DNA from: Terriglobia bacterium
Lineage (GTDB): Bacteria > Acidobacteriota > Terriglobia > Bryobacterales > Bryobacteraceae
Assembly (NCBI GenBank): GCA_021325175.1
Contig: JAJPHS010000058.1
Span: 1 to 64,000, forward strand
Length of the DNA stretch: 64,000 nucleotides
Direction: 5' to 3'
Shown: positions 3,228-15,447 of the stretch, piece after piece
Position numbering within the stretch: position 1 is the stretch's first letter
Layout: every line of letters starts with the position of its first letter
The notes under the pieces: model-generated
What the model was told of the DNA's origin: nothing
Databases searched by the model: none
What the model saw: only the letters and a program-made list of their open reading frames with translations
Made by a program: the position numbers and the translations under genes

Positions 3228-4255
3228 TGATAGATAACGCCCGATCCGCGAATCACTTCGCCGATCGAGTGCCAGGGCTCGCGCAGCGAGTCGAGAATCT
3301 TCGCTGCCCCCGCCAGTTTTCGCGGCGACACGACCACGATCATCCCGATTCCGAGATTGAACGTGCGCCGCCAGTCGTCTTCCGGAATGCCGCCGATGCG
3401 GCGCAGCAGCTCGAAAACCGGCGGCACGGGCCAGGAGTTCCTGCGAATGCGAACGCCCAATCCTTTCGGCAGGATGCGCGGCGCATTGTCCGTGATTCCA
3501 CCGCCGGTGATGTGCGCCGCGCCCTTGAGCAATCCGGCCTGGTGCAGCGCGCGCAGTGGTTTCAAATAACTGCGATGCAGCTTCAGCAGCTCATCGCCGA
3601 TACTGCCGCCCAGCTCTTTGAGAACGGTCGCCGGTTTGTGCCTGGCCACATCGAACAGAAGCTTGCGCGCAAGGGAATATCCGTTGGTGTGCAAACCGGT
3701 GGAGGGCAGCCCGATCAAGATGTCGCCTGTGCGAATCCGGGCGCCGGTCAGCATTTGTTTTCGCTCCACCGCGCCGACGATGAAGCCCGCCAGATCGTAT
3801 TCGCCGGGCGCGTAAAATCCCGGCATCTCCGCGGTTTCGCCGCCGATCAACGCGCAGCCGTTGGCGCGGCAGCCGCGGGCGATGCCGGAGATCACCTGCG
3901 CGGCGACCTTCGCGTCCAGTTTTCCGACCGCGAAATAATCCAGAAAAAACAGCGGCGACGCTCCCTGCACCGCGATATCATTCACGCAGTGATTCACCAG
4001 ATCCTCGCCGACGGTGGAATGCCGGCCGGTGAGGAAGGCAAGCTTCAGTTTGGTGCCGACGCCGTCGGCGGAGGAAACCAGCACGGGATCGCGAAATCCC
4101 CGCAACAGGAATCCGGCGCCGAAGCTGCCGATATCGGTGAGCACCTCCGGACGGAAGGTGGCCCGCGCCATGCGGCGGATGGATTTGACCGCGCGGTCCG
4201 CTTCATCGATATCCACGCCGGCGTTGCGATAGGCCACCGCCTTTTTCTTCGCCAT
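3224..4255 (-). CDS. purM: Phosphoribosylformylglycinamidine cyclo-ligase (AIR synthetase)
   Basis: This 343-residue ATP-dependent enzyme closes the imidazole ring of aminoimidazole ribonucleotide. Diagnostic blocks are VSSADGVGTKLKLA (about 61-74), VNHCVNDIAVQGASPLFFLDYF (about 88-109), GGETAEMPGFY (about 138-148) and the late HITGGGITDNAPRILP. The N-terminal block with YRNAGVDIDEADRAV is typical. Length is normal. It starts three bases after the carbamoyltransferase stop and overlaps purN by four bases. Confidence 0.96.
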   Translation of the reverse strand: MAKKKAVAYRNAGVDIDEADRAVKSIRRMARATFRPEVLTDIGSFGAGFLLRGFRDPVLVSSADGVGTKLKLAFLTGRHSTVGEDLVNHCVNDIAVQGASPLFFLDYFAVGKLDAKVAAQVISGIARGCRANGCALIGGETAEMPGFYAPGEYDLAGFIVGAVERKQMLTGARIRTGDILIGLPSTGLHTNGYSLARKLLFDVARHKPATVLKELGGSIGDELLKLHRSYLKPLRALHQAGLLKGAAHITGGGITDNAPRILPKGLGVRIRRNSWPVPPVFELLRRIGGIPEDDWRRTFNLGIGMIVVVSPRKLAGAAKILDSLREPWHSIGEVIRGSGVIYQ

Positions 4256-7507: not shown

Positions 7508-8929
7508 TCATAATTTCCCGATGGCGCGATCCATTCGATCGAGCGCCGTTTCGCGCCCCAGCGCGGCCAGCGTCGCAAACAGCGGCGGCGCCACTTTGCG
7601 CCCGCACACCGCGACGCGAACCGGCTGATACATCTGGCCGGTTTTGATTTTCAACTTTTCCGCTCCCGCTTTCAGCGCCGCTTCAAGCGCGTCAGGCTCG
7701 AACGTTGCCGTCTCCAGAATCTTTCGCGCCTCCCGCAAGACCGATTTCGCCAGCTCCGGCGTTCCCTTTTGCGGAACCAGCTCCGAGGCCGGATACGGCG
7801 GAAGCTCGTCGACGAAAAAAAAATCGGCGACCTCGCGCACGTCGCGCAGCAGCTTGATCCGCTCCTGAATCAGCGGCGCGATTTTCCGCAGTTTGCAGAG
7901 GTCGGGCTTGGGCGCAAACGGCGCCAGCGCTTTTGCCAACTCCTCAACCGGCATGGTGCGGATCGTCTCCGCGTTCAGCCACACCGCCTTGGGATCGAAC
8001 GGATCTTCGGCGGTGAAATTCACGGTCGCGTTGCTGCGATTCACGCCTTCCAGCGAAAACGCGTCGATCAGCTCCGCCCGCGACATCACCTCCCGGTCGT
8101 TTTTGGGCGACCATCCGAGCAGCACCACGAAATTCACGAAGGCGTGCGGCAAAAATCCGGCGTCGCGATAGGTGGTGACGCTGACCACCGGCCCATGCTT
8201 GCGCTTGGATAATTTCGATCCATCGGGGGCGATCAGCAGCGGCAGGTGCGCGAACTTCGGCGGCTCGACGCCGAGCGCCTTGAAAATCAGCACGTGCTTG
8301 AATGTGTTGGTCAGATGATCCTGACCGCGAATAATGTGGCTGATGCGCAGGTCGGCGTCGTCGGCGCAGCTCGCCATGTGATAGGTCGGCGCGCCGGTTG
8401 AACGCAGCAGCGCGAAATCTTCCATATCGGCCGTCGCCTTGAGCTGCTCGCCGTAGACCAGATCGTTGAAGATCACCTTGTCTTCGCGCTCGCGCGGAAC
8501 GCGGAAACGCAGCACGAACGGCTCGCCCGCCGCGGCGCGGCGATCGCTTTCGGCGCGCGAAAGCCCGCGCATCTCCGGATGAAACAGCCACGGCCCGCCG
8601 GCGTGCGATTTTTCTTCCAGATCGCCCGCAGCCGGCGTGAAATCGCGATACGCCAGTCCTTTCTCGAAAATTTTCATCGCCATCTCGCGATGCTTATCCC
8701 CGCGCTCGGACTGGCGGTAAAATTCATCCCAATTCAAATCGAGCCATTTCAGCCCGTCGAAAATCGAGTCGAGCGATTCCTGCGTATTGCGTTCCAGATC
8801 CGTATCGTCGATGCGCAGAATCATCGCGCCGCCGTTGTGGCGCGCGTACAGCCAGTTAAAGATGAACGTCCGCGCGCTGCCAATGTGCAGGTATCCTGTC
8901 GGGGAGGGCGCGAATCGGACTCGAAGCAT
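7508..8929 (-). CDS. gltX: Glutamyl-tRNA synthetase
   Basis: This 473-residue class I synthetase charges tRNA-Glu. The N-terminal [20 protein letters not shown] holds the HIGH motif, LRIDDTD follows, and KLSKRKHG (about residues 237-244) is the KMSKS loop. The C-terminal alpha-helical anticodon-binding domain is present and length is normal. It is the first gene of the minus-strand operon that continues with glnS. It is divergent from the small RiPP-like gene at 9086, and the 156-base gap between them must hold both promoters. Confidence 0.96.
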
Positions 8930-8989
8930 GGGAAATTTCAGGATAGCAGCGATGTAACATTCCTCGAAAGCGTCCGGCGCGCGGCGGGT

Positions 8990-9020
8990 TTGTTCCGGAC
9001 GCGCGCATCCCGCCTATAAT
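8990..9020 (+). promoter_or_regulatory. Sigma-70-type promoter ahead of the RiPP operon
   Basis: A perfect TATAAT lies at 9015-9020, 65 bases before the ATG at 9086. The best upstream partner is TTGTTC at 8990-8995, which gives a slightly long 19-base spacer, so the -35 call is weak. A strong ribosome-binding site (AAGGAG, 9071-9076) sits nine bases before the ATG. The predicted leader is roughly 60 bases. Confidence 0.5.
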
Positions 9021-9085
9021 GGTAAGGTGACCTGAACGGGTCTCCGGGCGTCCAGTTTTCGATACCTGACAAGGAGCTTACAACC

Positions 9086-9352
9086 ATGGAAATTTCCAAG
9101 AAATCGCTGGTGCTGGCGGCAGCCATGACGGGGCTGCTCAGCGGCACCATGGCGCGCGTCAACGCGCAGGACAATCCGCAGCAACCCTCCAAGGCCAAGG
9201 CGAAAAAAGCGGTGGCCGAAAAACACGCCTGCGCCGGACAGAACTCCTGCAAAGGAAAAGGCGGCTGCAAGAGCGGCGACAACGGATGCGCCGGAAAAAA
9301 TTCCTGCAAAGGCAAGGGCGGCTGCGCCACCGACGGCTCCAATAAGAAGTAA
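9086..9352 (+). CDS. Small secreted Cys-rich RiPP precursor, bufferin (BufA2)-like
   Basis: This 88-residue protein has an N-terminal signal-peptide-like segment (residues 1-27, Lys5-Lys6, hydrophobic core, likely cut near VNA-QD), a Lys/Ala linker, and a core with six Cys at 49, 55, 61, 68, 74 and 80. The core consists of two 13-residue units, CAGQNSCKGKGGC and CAGKNSCKGKGGC, that differ at one position. The C-x-G-x-N-x-C-K-G pattern with a signal peptide, next to DUF692 and DUF2063 genes, matches the bufferin/HvfA class of peptides modified by MNIO enzymes and linked to copper or other metal binding. Homology is inferred from motif and context; the modification and the metal are unknown. 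The start is supported by AAGGAG nine bases upstream. Confidence 0.85.
   Translation: MEISKKSLVLAAAMTGLLSGTMARVNAQDNPQQPSKAKAKKAVAEKHACAGQNSCKGKGGCKSGDNGCAGKNSCKGKGGCATDGSNKK
9230..9325 (+). repeat. In-gene tandem duplication encoding the Cys core units
   Basis: Codons 49-61 (9230-9268) and 68-80 (9287-9325) encode near-identical 13-residue Cys units at a 57-base period. The DNA is similar but not identical, with several synonymous differences. This suggests an older duplication held by selection on the peptide. Confidence 0.75.
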
Positions 9353-9371
9353 TTGGCGCCTTTCTCGCCCG

Positions 9372-9390
9372 GGCCGGCCGATCTCCGGCC
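9372..9390 (+). promoter_or_regulatory. Intercistronic hairpin between RiPP precursor and its enzyme
   Basis: GGCCGG (9372-9377) and CCGGCC (9385-9390) form a 6-bp stem with a 7-base loop, 11 bases before the DUF692 ATG at 9402. There is no T-run. No clear Shine-Dalgarno precedes that ATG, in contrast to the strong one before the precursor. The hairpin could lower enzyme expression relative to precursor or protect the short precursor mRNA; this is inference only. Confidence 0.35.
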
Positions 9391-9401
9391 TCGCATCTTC
9401 C

Positions 9402-10268
9402 ATGCCCGCCAACCGGTTCAACGGCTTTACCGATTACGGAATCGGCATCGGTCTGCGCCTGGCGCACTACGATCACATCCTGAAGAACAGGCCGGTGGTC
9501 GGCTGGTTTGAGATCATCTCGGAAAATTACATGATCGACGGCGGGCGCCCGCTGGCGATTCTCGATCGGATCCTCGAACAGTACCGCGTCGTTCAGCACG
9601 GCGTCTCGGCCTATTTCGGCTCGGCGGAAAAACTGAACCGCGAGCACCTCAAGCGTCTCAAGGCGTTGGTGAAGCGAACCAAGACGCCGTGGCTCACCGA
9701 TCATCTCTGCTGGGGCAGCGTCGACGGAACCTACAGCCATGATCTTCTGCCGATGCCCTATACGTTTGAAGCCGCAAAGCTCACGGCGCGAAAAATCCGC
9801 CAGGCGCGGGATTATCTGGAAGTCCCCATCGCCGTCGAAAATGTTTCAAGCTACGCCGAATTTCACGTTTCGGAGATGACCGAATGGGAATTTCTAAGTG
9901 AAGTCGTGGAGCGCGCCGACTGCGGCATCCTGCTCGACGTCAACAATATCTATGTCTCCTCGCGCAATCACGATTTCGACCCGTACACTTATCTGAACAG
10001 CATTCCCGCGGATCGCGTCGCGCAGATCCATATCGCCGGCCATTCGAAATTTCAGAAATACATTCTCGACACGCACGACCATCCGGTGATCGACCCGGTT
10101 TGGAAACTGTACGAGCACGCAATCCGCCGCATCGGTCCCACGGCGACGCTGCTTGAATGGGACGATCGCATCCCGTCCTTCGAGGAAGTCCACGCCGAAG
10201 CGCGAAAAGCGGAAAAATACGCGCCCGCCTTGAGCGCGCTCTCCACGGCATTCAATGAAGCTGGTTGA
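9402..10268 (+). CDS. DUF692 multinuclear non-haem iron oxidase (MNIO), BufB-like
   Basis: This 288-residue TIM-barrel protein belongs to the DUF692/MNIO family, whose members (MbnB, TglH, ChrH, HvfB, BufB) oxidatively modify Cys residues in RiPP precursors using two or three iron atoms. Likely iron-ligand positions can be seen: His66 in QHGVSAYFGS, His101, Glu146 in VENVSSY, Asp179 in LLDVNNIYVSS, His210 and His214 in HIAGH, the DTHDH group at 223-227, and Glu252. It starts 49 bases after the Cys-rich precursor, and its last 14 bases overlap the DUF2063 gene. The predicted substrate is the Cys core of the 9086 product. Confidence 0.93.
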   Translation: MPANRFNGFTDYGIGIGLRLAHYDHILKNRPVVGWFEIISENYMIDGGRPLAILDRILEQYRVVQHGVSAYFGSAEKLNREHLKRLKALVKRTKTPWLTDHLCWGSVDGTYSHDLLPMPYTFEAAKLTARKIRQARDYLEVPIAVENVSSYAEFHVSEMTEWEFLSEVVERADCGILLDVNNIYVSSRNHDFDPYTYLNSIPADRVAQIHIAGHSKFQKYILDTHDHPVIDPVWKLYEHAIRRIGPTATLLEWDDRIPSFEEVHAEARKAEKYAPALSALSTAFNEAG

Positions 10269-11085
10269 GCTGCAAAAAAAATTCGCGCAAGCCTTGATGG
10301 CGCCGCTCGTTCCCGGCGGCGTTCCCGCGCCCGCCGCCGGATTCATCAAGCCGAACGCGCACCTCACCGCGCGCGAGCGCCTGGAAATCTACCGGCGCAG
10401 CTACTGGTACCGCCTGATCGATTCGATGCACGAGGATTTCCCCGGGCTGCGCGCCGTCACCGGCCCACGAGCCTTCGACCAATTGATTCGCGCTTATCTT
10501 GCCGATTGCCCGTCGCGATCTTTCACGCTGCGCGATCTCGGCTCGCGCCTGGAATCGTGGTTGCGCGCGCATCCGGAATATGCGGGCCGCCGGCTGGCGC
10601 TCGCGCTCGATATGATCCGGCTCGAATGGGCGCACATCGAAGCCTGGGATGCGAAGGAGGAAAGAGTTCTCGGGCCCGAAGATCTGCTGGAGCCCGGACC
10701 AAGGCTGAAAATCCGTTTGCAGCCCTTCGTCCGTTTACTTGCGCTTGATTATCCGGTTGATAAGCTGCGCCTGAGCGTCAACGCCGGCGAGCACGAAACG
10801 GCCAGCAATCTGGTTTTGAAAAAAGTCCGGCGGCGGATCGGCTCCGCCGCGCGAATGAAGCCGAGGCGGATCTACGTCGCCGTCCATCGGCTGGATTTTT
10901 CGATTTATTACCGGCGCCTGAGCGTCGAGGAGTTTACGCTGCTCTCGGCTTTGCGCGACGGCCGGACCGCCGGCGCGGCGCTGGCAAGCTGCTGCCGCGC
11001 CAGCCGCCTCCCGATCGATAAACTGCGCGCCCGCGTCGAACAATGCTTCGCCACATGGGCCGAGCTGGGCTGGTTTTCTAAATAG
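10255..11085 (+). CDS. DUF2063 RiPP partner protein, BufC/HvfC-like
   Basis: This 276-residue protein matches the DUF2063 family, the usual partner of DUF692 enzymes. The N-terminal domain (about 1-100) contains LTARERLEIYRRSYWYRLIDSM and DFPGLRAVTG, the hallmark DUF2063 blocks. The rest is a mixed helical region with a C-terminal winged-helix-like stretch (LSVEEFTLLSALRDG...). In characterised MbnBC-type pairs the partner binds the precursor leader and delivers it to the MNIO; that role is inferred here. It overlaps the DUF692 gene by 14 bases, implying a complex with matched stoichiometry. No DoxX-type BufD gene follows. Confidence 0.85.
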   Translation: MKLVELQKKFAQALMAPLVPGGVPAPAAGFIKPNAHLTARERLEIYRRSYWYRLIDSMHEDFPGLRAVTGPRAFDQLIRAYLADCPSRSFTLRDLGSRLESWLRAHPEYAGRRLALALDMIRLEWAHIEAWDAKEERVLGPEDLLEPGPRLKIRLQPFVRLLALDYPVDKLRLSVNAGEHETASNLVLKKVRRRIGSAARMKPRRIYVAVHRLDFSIYYRRLSVEEFTLLSALRDGRTAGAALASCCRASRLPIDKLRARVEQCFATWAELGWFSK

Positions 11086-11181
11086 ACCGCGCCTGGTAAC
11101 GTCAGCCCGATCTTTTCCCGTCACACCTGGCGGCCCTTCAACGTCTCATCCCCGTAATAAGCACGCATCGGGAGGATTTCG

Positions 11182-12102
11182 ATGGTAACGCAACGCGAAT
11201 CTGGTCACCGCCCGCGCGGCGGAGTGGGCAGGCAACTCGCCAACGGATTGGGATGGTTCAGTATCGGGCTCGGCGTGGCGGAACTGGTGGCGCCGCGCGC
11301 GATGGAAAAAGTGATCGGCGTCCGCGATCGGGACCGCCGGCGCAACGTGCTGCGCGCCTACGGGATGCGCGAAATCGCCGCGGGCGTCGGCATTCTCTCC
11401 ATGCCCAGCCGTCCGGAGTGGCTCTGGACGCGTGTCGCCGGAGACATCGTCGATCTGGCATCGCTCGGCCAGGCGTTTGCCTTGCGGGACGCCAAGCGCG
11501 GCCGCGTCGCCGCCGCAACCGCGGCGGTGCTGGGCGTCACCGCGCTCGACGTGCTGTGCGGAACGCAGCTCAGCCGCCGGAAACCGTTCCGCGCCAGCGC
11601 CACAGTTCTTATCGGAAAAAAGCCGGAGGAGCTGTATCCGTTCTGGCGCGATCTGTCCAACGTCGTGCAGCTTGAGCCGTACCTCGAATCGGTGCGCCCG
11701 CTCGCCGATGATCGTTGGCGCTGGACCGCGAGAATCGGCGGCGGACCGGCCCTTGAAGTGGATACCGAGATCGTGCGCGATCAGCCGAATCAATATATCG
11801 AGTGGCGATCGCCGGAAGGCTCGGCCACGCGCCTGCGCGCTGCGATCCGATTCACGCCCGCCGCCGGCGATCGCGGCACGCTGGTGCGCAGCGAAGTGGA
11901 GATCGACGGACCTCTCGCGCTGCTTGCCAAACCGGCCAGCGCCGCCGGCATCGGCCCGGAACTGCGCCTGGAGCAGCACTTGCGGCGCTTCAAGCAACTG
12001 ATGGAGACCGGCGAAATCGCCCGCGCCTATCGCGGCCAGGCGACGCAGCCTCGCCCGCGATTCGAGACCACGCGCGGGTTGGAACCCGCGCTTTCGCATT
12101 AA
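11182..12102 (+). CDS. SRPBCC/polyketide-cyclase-like protein with N-terminal membrane segments
   Basis: This 306-residue protein has about three weakly hydrophobic N-terminal stretches (near residues 20-38, 57-70 and 108-128) and then an SRPBCC (Bet v 1-like, cyclase/dehydrase) domain at about 135-280. The domain includes the typical KPEELYPFWRDLSNV start and a long C-terminal helix (LRLEQHLRRFKQLMETGE). A GGAGG site precedes the ATG. It stops nine bases before a zinc-dependent alcohol dehydrogenase. The pairing of such proteins with zinc dehydrogenases is common, but the ligand is not known. Confidence 0.75.
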   Translation: MVTQRESGHRPRGGVGRQLANGLGWFSIGLGVAELVAPRAMEKVIGVRDRDRRRNVLRAYGMREIAAGVGILSMPSRPEWLWTRVAGDIVDLASLGQAFALRDAKRGRVAAATAAVLGVTALDVLCGTQLSRRKPFRASATVLIGKKPEELYPFWRDLSNVVQLEPYLESVRPLADDRWRWTARIGGGPALEVDTEIVRDQPNQYIEWRSPEGSATRLRAAIRFTPAAGDRGTLVRSEVEIDGPLALLAKPASAAGIGPELRLEQHLRRFKQLMETGEIARAYRGQATQPRPRFETTRGLEPALSH

Positions 12103-12111
12103 GGAGCCGCC

Positions 12112-13284
12112 ATGAAAGCCACCTGCTGGATGGGCAAAGAAGAAGTCCGCGTCGAAAACGTGCCGGACCCGACCATTCTCAATCCGCGCGACGCCATCGT
12201 GAAGATCACCGCGACGGCCATCTGCGGCTCCGATCTGCATCTCTACAACGGTTTTATTCCAAGCATGGAGAAGGGCGACATCCTCGGCCACGAGTTCATG
12301 GGTGAAGTGGTCGAGGTGGGCCCGGCCGTTAAGAATCTGAAGCGCGGCGACCGCGTCGTGGTGCCGTTTCCCATCGCCTGCGGCTCCTGCTTTTTCTGCC
12401 GCAAAGGACTATTTTCCACGTGCGAAAATTCCAATCCGAACTGGGTGCTCGCCGAAAAAATGTGGGGCCACGGAGTCGCCGGAGTTTATGGATACTCGCA
12501 CCTGCTCGGCGGCTATGCGGGCGGGCAGGCCGAATATGCGCGCGTGCCGTTCGCCGACGTCGGCCCGCTCAAGATTCCCGACGAGCTGCCCGACGACAAG
12601 GTTCTGTTCCTCTCCGATATTTTCCCCACCGGCTACATGGCCGCTGATATGTGCGGCATCGAGCCGGGCGACACGGTTGCCGTCTGGGGCTGCGGGCCGG
12701 TAGGCCAGTTCGCGATGGCCAGCGCGTTTCTGCTGGGCGCCGAGCGGGTCATCGGCATCGATCGTTTCCCGGAGCGGCTGCGCATGGCGCGCGAAAAAGT
12801 CGGCGCCGATACCATCAACTACGAAGAGAGCGACGTACACGAAACCTTGCAGGATTTGACCGGCGGCATCGGGCCGGATCGCTGCATCGACGCGGTGGGA
12901 ATGGAGGCGCACGCGCCCGGTCCCATCGATATGTACGATCGCGCCAAGACGGCGCTGATGATGGAGACGGACCGCCCCTTCGCGCTGCGCCAGGCAATCA
13001 TGAACTGCCGCAACGGCGGGACCGTTTCCGTCGCAGGCGTCTACGGCGGATTCATCGATAAATTCCCCATGGGATCGCTGATGAACCGGAGTCTGACGGT
13101 TCGCACCGGACAGGCGCACGTGCAGCGCTACATGCGCCCGCTGCTCGAGCGCATTCAGGCCGGCGACATCGATCCGAGCTTCGTCATCACCCATCACATG
13201 AAACTGGATCAGGCCCCGGAAGCCTATCGCATGTTCCGCGACAAGCAGGATGAGTGCATCAAGGTCGTGCTGAATCCGAATTAA
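12112..13284 (+). CDS. Zinc-dependent alcohol dehydrogenase (formaldehyde-dehydrogenase-like)
   Basis: This 390-residue medium-chain dehydrogenase oxidises an alcohol or aldehyde adduct with NAD(P). The catalytic zinc site is visible as [11 protein letters not shown] (Cys38) and [12 protein letters not shown] (His-Glu near 63-64). The structural zinc site is the four-Cys cluster in [18 protein letters not shown] (about 87-104). The Rossmann motif is [13 protein letters not shown] (about 194-206). The long C-terminal half with DAVGMEAH resembles glutathione-independent formaldehyde dehydrogenases and threonine-dehydrogenase-like proteins. AAGGAG lies just before its ATG, and it is probably co-transcribed with the SRPBCC gene. 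Confidence 0.87.
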
Positions 13285-13329: not shown

Positions 13330-14430
13330 ATGAAGGCCGCCTGGACCGACGCTGCGACCGGTGTCTTCGCTCGCATGGATGCGAAGGCGCGCGAAATCGT
13401 CGAAAAGCGTTTCGGCGTGCGGCTCGATGCCGCGCAATCCGGCGAAAAACAGCAGGCCGCCTGGGACGTTTATCAGAACGCCACCGTCAAAATTCTCAAG
13501 GCGCTCGCTGCCGATACGCGCATCGACGATCCGGCCGGCTACGCCGCCACCATCGCGCGCAATAGCTGCCGCGATTACTGGCGTCTGCGCAATCCCGGCT
13601 GGGCCGATCTGAAGGGCCGCCTCAGCCGCTTCTTTCGCAAGCAGCCTGGCTGGGCGATGTGGCAATCCGATGAGCAGCTCGGCTGGATCTGCGGACCGGC
13701 GGATTGGCGAAGCAAACCCCCGGCAGCCGGCAGCCGCATCAGCGAACTGATCGAACAGCCGCGCCGCCTTGGCCGCGACGCGCTGCCCAAAGCGGAGCTG
13801 GCCGGGCGCCTCGACGCCGCCGGATGGGGTCGCCTGCTGCGCGGCGTCTTCGACTATCTGGACGGCCCCGCGCGCCTGGACGAAGTGGTTTCGATCGCCG
13901 GCGTGCTGTTCGGCGTAAAAGGCTCGCGCGAGATGGCTTTCGATGAGCTCGCCGCCGCCGAAGACGGCCGGGGCTGGGATCCGCCGGCGCCTGAAGAGCG
14001 CATCGACGACCGGCTTTCCGTACTGGAGCAGCTCCGCCGGGTGTGGGAAGAGATCAAAACGATGCCGAAGCGCTGGGTTTTGCCGTTCTTATTAAATCCG
14101 CCGGTGCTCAAGGGACCCAAAGGCGCCGCCGATCGTGGCGAAGTGGCGGTTTTCGCGGCCTGCGGCGTCGCAACCATCGCTGAAATCGAGGCGCTGATCG
14201 AATTTTCGGCTGCCCACTACGATCTGCTCGCGCGCGAGCTCAATTTATCGTTTTCGCCCGATCCTCGCCTGCGCTTCGCCGCCGTGTGGAACGCATTGCC
14301 GCTTGAAGACGGCCTGATCGCGCGCCTGATGGGCCTGGAATCGGCCCAAAAAGTCATTAATTTACGGATGGTCGCGAAGAATCATCTGGCCAAGGTGCTG
14401 GCGCTTGAAAAAAAATCGGCGCGCAGCTAA
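13330..14430 (+). CDS. ECF-type sigma-70-like factor with an enlarged middle region
   Basis: This 366-residue protein has an ECF region-2-like N-terminal part: DVYQNATVKILKAL (about 46-59) then DPAGYAATIARNSCRDYWR (about 68-86), the pattern seen in core-binding and -10 recognition helices. Instead of a short linker to region 4, some 150 residues follow, including a winged-helix-like stretch (LLRGVFDYLDGPARLDEVVSIAG). The C-terminal LIARLMGLESAQKVINLRMVAKN could serve as a divergent region 4. ECF factors usually have about 200 residues, so this one is nearly twice normal size. A zinc-finger anti-sigma-like gene follows after 42 bases, which supports a regulatory pair. The trigger and regulon are unknown. 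Confidence 0.65.
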   Translation: MKAAWTDAATGVFARMDAKAREIVEKRFGVRLDAAQSGEKQQAAWDVYQNATVKILKALAADTRIDDPAGYAATIARNSCRDYWRLRNPGWADLKGRLSRFFRKQPGWAMWQSDEQLGWICGPADWRSKPPAAGSRISELIEQPRRLGRDALPKAELAGRLDAAGWGRLLRGVFDYLDGPARLDEVVSIAGVLFGVKGSREMAFDELAAAEDGRGWDPPAPEERIDDRLSVLEQLRRVWEEIKTMPKRWVLPFLLNPPVLKGPKGAADRGEVAVFAACGVATIAEIEALIEFSAAHYDLLARELNLSFSPDPRLRFAAVWNALPLEDGLIARLMGLESAQKVINLRMVAKNHLAKVLALEKKSARS

Positions 14431-14472
14431 TTTCGCGCCTTTGGGCGCGCCGTGCGAAAGCGAGGCAAGAAT

Positions 14473-15447
14473 ATGGCGGATCATCTCAACAGCGAGCAGA
14501 TGGTCAAATATCGGGATCGCGCGCTGGCGCCGGAGGAAACCGTCGCCGCGGACCGGCACCTGAGCGAGTGCCCGCAGTGCCGCGCCTCGGTCGCCGCCCT
14601 CATTTCCGGCGAGGCTCTGCTCGGAGCCATTGCGGCGGCTCGCAACGATCATCTGAGCTACGAGCAGATGGACGCCTGGGTGGAGAATCAGCTCGACGAG
14701 ACCGAGCGCGAATTCATGATGGCGCACGTCGCGCTTTGCGAGCCCTGCGCCCGCCAGTTGCGCGCCTACGAATCGTACGCGCCGGCGATGAGCACGCTGA
14801 TCCCGCCGCCCGCGCGCGAGGCAACCAGGTGGACGGACCGGGCGCTCGCCTTCTTTCGCACGCCGCAATTTGCGGTGCTGGCCACCGCGGCGCTGGTCGC
14901 CGTGATTCTGAGTCCGGTGGTGCTGCGCGAAGCGGGCCATCAGAGCTGGGGCGACTTTCTGGCCCCGGCGCGTCCGGAAGCGCTGCGCGATCTGCCGGTG
15001 AATCCGGATACTTCCCTGGTTTATCCGGTTTCCGAGGCCATCGAGGAGCAGCAGCCGATCTTCGAATGGCGGAACACCGGCGGCGAGGCCGCGCAAATTT
15101 TCATTTTCGACGCGGCGCATAAAGAGATTGCGCATAGCGCTCCGATATCCGGCGCGGAATGGCTGGCGCCGGTTCCGCTCGACCGCGGTGCGGTATATAT
15201 GTGGGAGGTCCGCACCGCGGCGGGCGCGCGAACGGCGTCGTTTCGCGTATTGAGCCAGGCCGATCATGAAAAGCTGGCCGCCGCCCGCGCGGCAAGCGCA
15301 TCGCCGGCGCGGATCGGGGAAATGGCCCGGACGATGGGCGCGCTGTCGGAGGCGCAGCGCCAGTTCCAGGACGAAATTCGCCGCGATCCGGCGGATTCAT
15401 CGGCGCGCAAGCAACTGGACCAAGTCATCCGAATGCGCGGCCGATAG
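14473..15447 (+). CDS. Zinc-finger anti-sigma-like transmembrane protein
   Basis: The chosen start (ATG 14473) gives 324 residues; a GTG at 14452 would add seven. The N-terminal HLSECPQCRASV is an HxxxCxxC anti-sigma zinc-binding motif, and a second similar one appears as HVALCEPCARQL. A single membrane span lies at about residues 135-152 (FAVLATAALVAVILSPVVL). The periplasmic part has a beta-rich sensor-like domain and a C-terminal helical, TPR-like stretch. Directly downstream of the sigma-like gene, it probably holds that factor at the membrane. Confidence 0.75.
   Translation: MADHLNSEQMVKYRDRALAPEETVAADRHLSECPQCRASVAALISGEALLGAIAAARNDHLSYEQMDAWVENQLDETEREFMMAHVALCEPCARQLRAYESYAPAMSTLIPPPAREATRWTDRALAFFRTPQFAVLATAALVAVILSPVVLREAGHQSWGDFLAPARPEALRDLPVNPDTSLVYPVSEAIEEQQPIFEWRNTGGEAAQIFIFDAAHKEIAHSAPISGAEWLAPVPLDRGAVYMWEVRTAAGARTASFRVLSQADHEKLAAARAASASPARIGEMARTMGALSEAQRQFQDEIRRDPADSSARKQLDQVIRMRGR

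Follow-up and report, generated by a model that had tools for sequence, protein, structure and literature searches.

Thousands of Buf2-type bufferin sequences, spread over a variety of taxa, are known according to the available text of PMC12452194, and the string "Acidobacteri" is absent from the main text of that survey, figures and supplements aside. The same text ascribes a thiooxazole and copper protection to Buf1, and an equal mass loss per Cys to Buf2. It also raises the question of how BufBC modifies a substrate that bears an export signal: some mechanism must stop export ahead of modification, the partner is speculated to mask the signal peptide and, in preliminary Buf1 results, the signal peptide belongs to the recognition sequence (PMC12452194). 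In the text available for the other related systems, fontiphorin is described as losing 4 Da per Cys with formation of a thiooxazole (PMC13097082), the same loss and group are given tentatively for bulbicupramide (PMC12538549), and a mixed-valent diiron chemistry of the MbnB/HvfB type is reported (PMC13419390). A Cys-Lys group was described, and NACKG tested among common motifs, in the accessible part of PMC13097082. Gammaproteobacteria from Antarctic soil are reported to carry DUF692/DUF2063 operons with six Cys (PMC8692599, as far as its available text goes).

In this work we analysed a stretch of 64,000 nt from a Terriglobia bacterium, to which we refer as the window. A previous reading, made from the letters alone (hereafter, the sequence-only reading), had placed in it a three-gene operon with a precursor, a DUF692 enzyme (MNIO) and an overlapping DUF2063 gene, and the ORFs and Pfam searches confirmed all three sets of coordinates. 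The gene order is precursor, MNIO, DUF2063 partner, as in the Buf2 bufferin operon (ORF list, Pfam), and the MNIO gene (9402-10268) overlaps that of the partner (10255-11085) by 14 nt. The features of the locus are the following:

9071..9076, + strand, AAGGAG, ribosome-binding-like, 5' of the precursor; read from the sequence, with the ATG at 9086; kept in the relative L033
9086..9352, + strand, BufA2-like precursor of 88 aa with six Cys; ORF list and NCBIfam NF050166 (35.3 bits, sub-cut-off)
9086..9166, + strand, signal peptide, residues 1-27, assigned by eye; cleavage after VNA is an estimate
9119..9145, + strand, A-x3-G-x3-G box (A12 to G20) within the signal peptide; precursor alignment and motif-versus-shuffle count
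9230..9268, + strand, Cys unit 1, CAGQNSCKGKGGC (C49, C55, C61); ORF translation and unit comparison
9287..9325, + strand, Cys unit 2, CAGKNSCKGKGGC (C68, C74, C80); ORF translation and unit comparison
9402..10268, + strand, BufB-type MNIO (DUF692) maturase, 288 aa; Pfam PF05114, NCBIfam BufB, invariant metal-site residues
10255..11085, + strand, BufC-type partner, 276 aa, DUF2063 plus an RRE-like C-terminal part; Pfam, model and Foldseek

The MNIO scored 359.9 bits against Pfam MbnB_TglH_ChrH (PF05114; cut-off 25) and 348.8 bits against NCBIfam BufB (NF050167; cut-off 310), which places it in the bufferin class, and it did not reach the cut-off of the HvfB profile (250.6 bits, cut-off 360). 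Sequence matches were found to 3BWW (E 2e-49), TglH (E 1.7e-25) and MbnB (E 1.2e-6). The enzyme superfamily in common, together with a match of 35 bits to MbnB TIGR04159, would speak for a methanobactin-like chalkophore with oxazolone/thioamide groups, serving copper uptake. We consider this very improbable, because the cut-off of that profile is 325, the precursor starts with what looks like a Sec-type signal peptide and not with a plain leader, and the product of the related HvfA is now reported to be a 5-thiooxazole (PMC13419390, available text).

Residues H66, H101, E146, D179, N181, N182, H210, D223, H225, E252 and D254 were invariant in 110/110 MNIOs, namely that of the window and those of the 109 loci where the MNIO ORF is complete (drawn from the phylum sample and from the best 80 among at least 563 relatives). 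The HvfB residues N175, D242 and H244, named as putative site-3 ligands in the part of PMC13419390 at hand, would by motif correspond to N181 or N182, D223 and H225 of the window, and D254 would match FonB D249 in the same way. As for the residue after the catalytic Asp, the available text of PMC13097082 states that Cys-Lys MNIOs carry Asp, not Phe; at this position the window MNIO has Asp and 3BWW has Phe. Asp255 was present in the window and in 90/110 MNIOs, and the other 20 had Ala, Gln, Gly, Glu or Ser; since some of the latter stand beside CKG precursors, the link between Asp255 and Cys-Lys is not a strict one.

The partner was recognised by Pfam DUF2063 (68.2 bits, cut-off 27.2) and missed the cut-off of the HvfC profile (46 bits, cut-off 142). 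At the sequence level its matches in the PDB were at chance level only (best E 0.51). An AlphaFold model of the partner had a pLDDT of 88.8 (27-sequence alignment). In Foldseek this model matched 3dee over most of its length (E 8.3e-5), and also chain A of the TglHI complex entries 8hci (E 9.2e-5) and 8hi7 (E 1.7e-4); chain D of 8hci is a DUF692 protein by sequence match, hence chain A was taken as TglI. The match to TbiB1 with leader peptide (RRE) was weak (E 2.1). As modelled, the partner conforms to PME-type 1, i.e. a DUF2063 domain fused to an RRE-type domain.

Against NCBIfam BufA2 (NF050166) the precursor obtained an E of 9.9e-9 and stayed below the cut-off of 60 bits, and for this reason we call the locus Buf2-type and not a curated BufA2 member. 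The four close relatives scanned were also below this cut-off (L033, 39 bits; L062, 35.7; L036, 41.9; L048, 17.9), and the Acidobacteriota locus L004, in which the last Cys follows C5 by 12 or 13 residues, passed it with 66.7 bits. A looser BufA2 search of own genomes at E 1 gave sub-cut-off matches also in 3/14 control genomes, therefore weak BufA2 scores alone are not specific. Pfam gave no DUF2282 match in the locus, the window precursor has no KCG, and a tblastn search of the precursor against plasmids gave no match.

To examine the relatives we used the MNIO as query against the GTDB genome collection, in which it had at least 563 relatives; the best 80 (77-95% identity) were retained, and 30 loci from the phylum sample were added. 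Without L001 and L002, which are the window itself, and without L084, whose MNIO is cut by a contig end, the MNIO ORF was complete in 109 loci, of which 101 had at least 450 nt upstream; the eight loci with less were excluded from the precursor count. A Cys precursor stood beside the MNIO in 95/101 informative loci, 94 by rule-based search plus L048, in which the precursor has one three-Cys unit only. The sequence-only reading had named the absence of a Cys-unit precursor beside orthologous DUF692 genes as what could refute it, and this check did not refute it. No Cys precursor was found upstream of the MNIO in 6/101 loci (L016, L017, L029, L079, L094 and L097), L029 having a three-Cys signal-peptide ORF in the precursor place.

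It could be argued that the peptide acts unmodified, like a metallothionein, and that the adjoining MNIO works on another substrate: Cys can bind metal without modification, and precursor genes without an adjoining MNIO exist (PMC12452194, in its available text). The pairing of precursor and MNIO in 95/101 loci and the conserved CKG context and enzyme sites make this, in our opinion, extremely improbable.

Two kinds of loci are worth recording separately. L079 and L094 have close MNIO orthologues (80%), with the MNIO at 4001, and no upstream Cys precursor; the ORF upstream of the MNIO is, presumably, a homoserine dehydrogenase, and the substrate may be encoded elsewhere. In L131 and L191, whose MNIOs are 46-49% identical to that of the window, related proteins of 374 and 395 aa, with no obvious signal peptide and with a Cys-x5-Cys tail (CMGLNSC...), lie just upstream of the MNIO, and a protein-sized substrate is possible.

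Taking together the gene order, the BufB score above cut-off, the fold of the partner and the pairing of precursor and MNIO, the bufferin interpretation already put forward is supported, and we consider it quite probable that the locus makes a Buf2-type bufferin by the mechanism published for its relatives. The chemistry is also less open than had been stated. On the example of those relatives, BufC would grip the precursor by its signal-peptide/leader region, and BufB would use O2 and a mixed-valent diiron centre to remove four electrons per target Cys and to close a 5-thiooxazole with the residue before the Cys, at a cost of 4 Da per Cys. This step would take place in the cytoplasm, to be followed by export and loss of the signal peptide, and the product of about 60 residues would buffer excess copper in the periplasm. 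The predicted mass change is -24 Da with six modified Cys and -16 Da with four.

The precursor, ORF 9086-9352, has the 88 residues, the six Cys (49, 55, 61, 68, 74 and 80) and the eight residues after the second unit and its last Cys that had been noted, and its units are indeed near-identical, with 34/39 nt the same. When the 60 residues that follow the signal peptide were shuffled, the four successive 6-residue Cys steps were equalled in 9/200,000 cases. The core had been called unusually short and regular, which did not hold: 49/94 precursors (from the phylum sample and the best 80 among at least 563 relatives) have exactly the spacing of the window, 5,5,6,5,5, and by this measure the core of the window is typical of its lineage. 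Four-Cys precursors made up 14/94 (spacings 5,13,5; 5,10,5; 5,15,5), eight of the 94 had 5,5,8,5,12 or 13, an arrangement that L005 contains too, and the remaining ones had 5, 9, 12 or more Cys. Two precursors look as if the core had been expanded unit by unit, namely L021:912-1388, a ladder of CKGEKAS-type heptads with 17 Cys, and L111:3584-3937, a ladder of Cys-x5 hexads with 9 Cys.

Among 82 distinct close-clade precursors, a count that leaves out L061, L081 and L104, C49, C55, C74 and C80 were kept in 99-100%, C61 in 78% and C68 in 72%, and Lys followed C55 in 96% and C74 in 91%. Judged from this conservation, C1, C2, C5 and C6 are near-obligatory and C3 and C4 dispensable, and we predict that Cys49, 55, 74 and 80 do the work and that Cys61 and Cys68 are accessory. 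From the Cys and Lys conservation and the Cys-Lys group of PMC13097082 (as far as its available text describes it), we infer that Cys55 and Cys74, both in N-S-C-K-G, are the surest modification sites.

We also considered a recent duplication of the 13-mer, and rejected it. In the 59 six-Cys precursors, on average 11.24 of the 13 residues were identical when both units came from the same peptide, and 11.13 when unit 1 of one peptide was set against unit 2 of another; unit 1 against unit 1 gave 10.95, and unit 2 against unit 2 gave 11.99. The arrangement in two units seems to be ancient and to have been preserved.

As regards the function, the same maturation could serve a physiological ligand or stress other than copper (zinc, gold, mercury, oxidative or sulphur stress). 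The available text of PMC12452194 mentions fusions to MerC, operons induced by gold and adjoining DoxX genes, and suggests roles beyond copper, and we found no copper-linked promoter element upstream of the operon in an alignment with ten relatives, a promoter scan and an Rfam search. Against this, the same text reports copper for Buf1 as shown and for Caulobacter Buf2 as suggested (PMC12452194), and DoxX, the gene hinting at other stresses, is missing from the window, so that we regard a non-copper role as unlikely.

The upstream region has little in common with the ten relatives past the start-codon region, L033 excepted. A TATAAT occurs at 9015-9020, with TTGTTC 19 nt upstream, and L033 has TACAAT at the same place; the promoter scan did not list this pair, 19 nt being outside its 16-18 nt rule. 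Rfam at gathering thresholds gave no match in 8400-12500. Further upstream is a divergent gene (7508-8929), which we take to be glutamyl-tRNA synthetase.

That no DoxX-type fourth gene follows the operon, as previously noted, was verified by tblastn, in which the DoxX proteins of two relatives had no match in the 64-kb window (E 1e-4). DoxX lies within 600 nt after the partner in 53/75 close relatives (those with an MNIO of at least 73% identity and a partner followed by 600 nt or more of sequence), so its lack in the window is a real local difference; the genome of the window has two DoxX matches above cut-off, on other contigs. The place that DoxX has in relatives is occupied at 11182-12102 by a Polyketide_cyc2/SRPBCC-type protein (Pfam), whose N-terminal part matches DUF4267 weakly (20.2 bits versus a cut-off of 27.8). 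As a fourth bufferin gene this candidate was rejected, since it was beside the operon in no fetched relative at E 1e-4, the sole match besides the window being L001, i.e. the window's own stretch. At 13330-15447, about 2 kb past the operon, the products of two successive genes match Sigma70_r2 (28.5 bits, cut-off 24) and zf-HC2 (45.8 bits, cut-off 22.2), in this order, and are likely a sigma/anti-sigma pair; sigma factor genes are placed in Buf1 clusters and not in Buf2 clusters by the available text of PMC12452194.

The genome of the window (94% complete) has one MNIO and one BufA2-like match. BufB was above cut-off in 57/396 phylum-sample genomes (any match in 106) and in 29/150 family-sample genomes (any match in 45). 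Within the genus of the window, five genomes across the two samples, only the window's own was above the BufB cut-off, and G512 had a weak match. The organism is probably one of the Bryobacterales, since two loci of its family correspond to loci named as Bryobacterales: L192 has the precursor of L035, and L187 the MNIO identity value of L034. In a 155-row MNIO tree, the phylum (62 rows labelled Acidobacteriota and 17 Verrucomicrobiota) switches at least twice across the 79 labelled rows, although mislabelled bins could matter, the labels being taken from record titles; these switches suggest transfer between the two phyla. Between them MNIO identity is about 80% and partner identity about 40-50%.

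The signal peptide of the window is typical, both by eye and in comparison with the precursors of relatives. In an alignment of 86 distinct close precursors, chosen without the motif pattern and leaving out 12 loci without a usable precursor, A12, A13, G16 and G20 were the same in 85/86, the odd one being L061 (broken frame, one unknown residue, no signal peptide). In an alignment-free count, A-x3-G-x3-G preceded the core in 87/88 distinct close sequences, versus 5.0 expected in shuffles. As the precursors share kinship, their linkers are a fairer control than shuffles, and the linker residues 30-40 are poorly conserved across close precursors. In OmpH of the same phylum the motif was found in 0/25 and no column exceeded 76%, a rough control because its start sites follow from a rule and are in several cases apparently wrong. 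The A-x3-G-x3-G box is a candidate for what the enzymes read.

A second feature of the signal peptides is a twin-arginine-like start, scored strictly as Met, at most six residues and then RRxF. It was found in 18 precursors (L014, L015, L020, L021, L022, L024, L135, L136, L173, L174, L176, L178, L180-L183, L189 and L190), all with MNIOs 50-57% identical to that of the window (sister clade); eight belong to the phylum sample, and the other ten were among 20 loci fetched from the family sample. They are Buf2-type, mostly with at least 10 Cys, and 14/18 keep A-x3-G-x3-[G/A]. RRxF was present in 0/95 close-clade precursors, RRxL in two (L073, L086), and the window precursor starts with MEISKKSLVL, without RR. 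Across the 135 rows of the MNIO tree that carry a label, RRxF is gained or lost at least four times. Four of the 13 RRxF precursors scanned passed the BufA2 cut-off (L024, 62.6; L135, 63.7; L136, 65.2; L176, 73.4) and nine missed it (11.1 to 56.8).

TatC was present in 10/10 genomes tested, including that of the window and six that hold RRxF precursors, the family-sample genomes being outside this set. No curated Tat profile reached its cut-off in the 13/18 RRxF precursors searched with NCBIfam, eight of them also with Pfam: TIGR01409 was listed for L020 only (15.3 bits, cut-off 16.7), TIGR02811 had sub-cut-off scores for L020, L021, L024 and L190, and no Pfam Tat family was listed for the eight. 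Tat signals are less hydrophobic, and peak hydrophobicity did not separate the groups (RRxF 1.77, close clade 1.80, window 1.69, OmpH 1.93). Going by the motif, some RRxF bufferins may use the Tat route. "Twin-arginine" was absent from the MNIO/DUF692/bufferin papers among the matches listed, supplements aside, and both "twin-arginine" and "Tat" from the main text of PMC12452194.

Putting box and RRxF starts together, we propose as a possible, still rather doubtful, reading that the signal peptide is the recognition leader, with a small-residue face read and shielded by BufBC until the Cys are modified, and that some sister-clade (RRxF) bufferins are maybe exported by Tat, a route able to wait for a matured substrate. 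If true, recognition leader and Tat route would explain how modification comes before export. We found neither box nor RRxF starts described before, and both bear on that order of events. Sequence-level tests are offered for two questions: which Cys are modified, and how a substrate with an export signal is modified.

With Buf1 (DUF2282) the locus shares the gene order and, by prediction, the logic of periplasmic copper buffering, whereas Buf1 has four Cys in another sequence. The Buf_EGKCG/oxazolins, fontiphorin and bulbicupramide have in common with it an MNIO with a DUF2063 partner, Cys repeats and -4 Da per Cys (predicted here), but they carry Lys-Cys repeats, and the HvfB score of the window is 250.6 of 360. 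The Cys-Lys captophorins, as described in the available text of PMC13097082, are similar in having Cys then Lys and Asp after the catalytic Asp, and NSCKG of the window is close to their NACKG motif; the tested set in that text has no member of the window's lineage. The closest system is Buf2 (Buf_6/12Cys, BufA2; Caulobacter vibrioides), with the bufABC order, a precursor with (here, probable) signal peptide, six Cys, a BufB-class MNIO and a DUF2063 partner. The window differs from it in the precursor, which is under the NCBIfam BufA2 cut-off, and in having no DoxX; its last Cys is five residues after C5, and in eight Acidobacteriota phylum-sample loci it is 12 or 13. With 5/5 precursors scanned under that cut-off, a soil lineage of Acidobacteriota and Verrucomicrobiota would join the likely copper-buffering RiPPs. 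The type of system is already known, and what appears new is the regularity of this soil lineage and the hint that its signal peptide gives at enzyme recognition.
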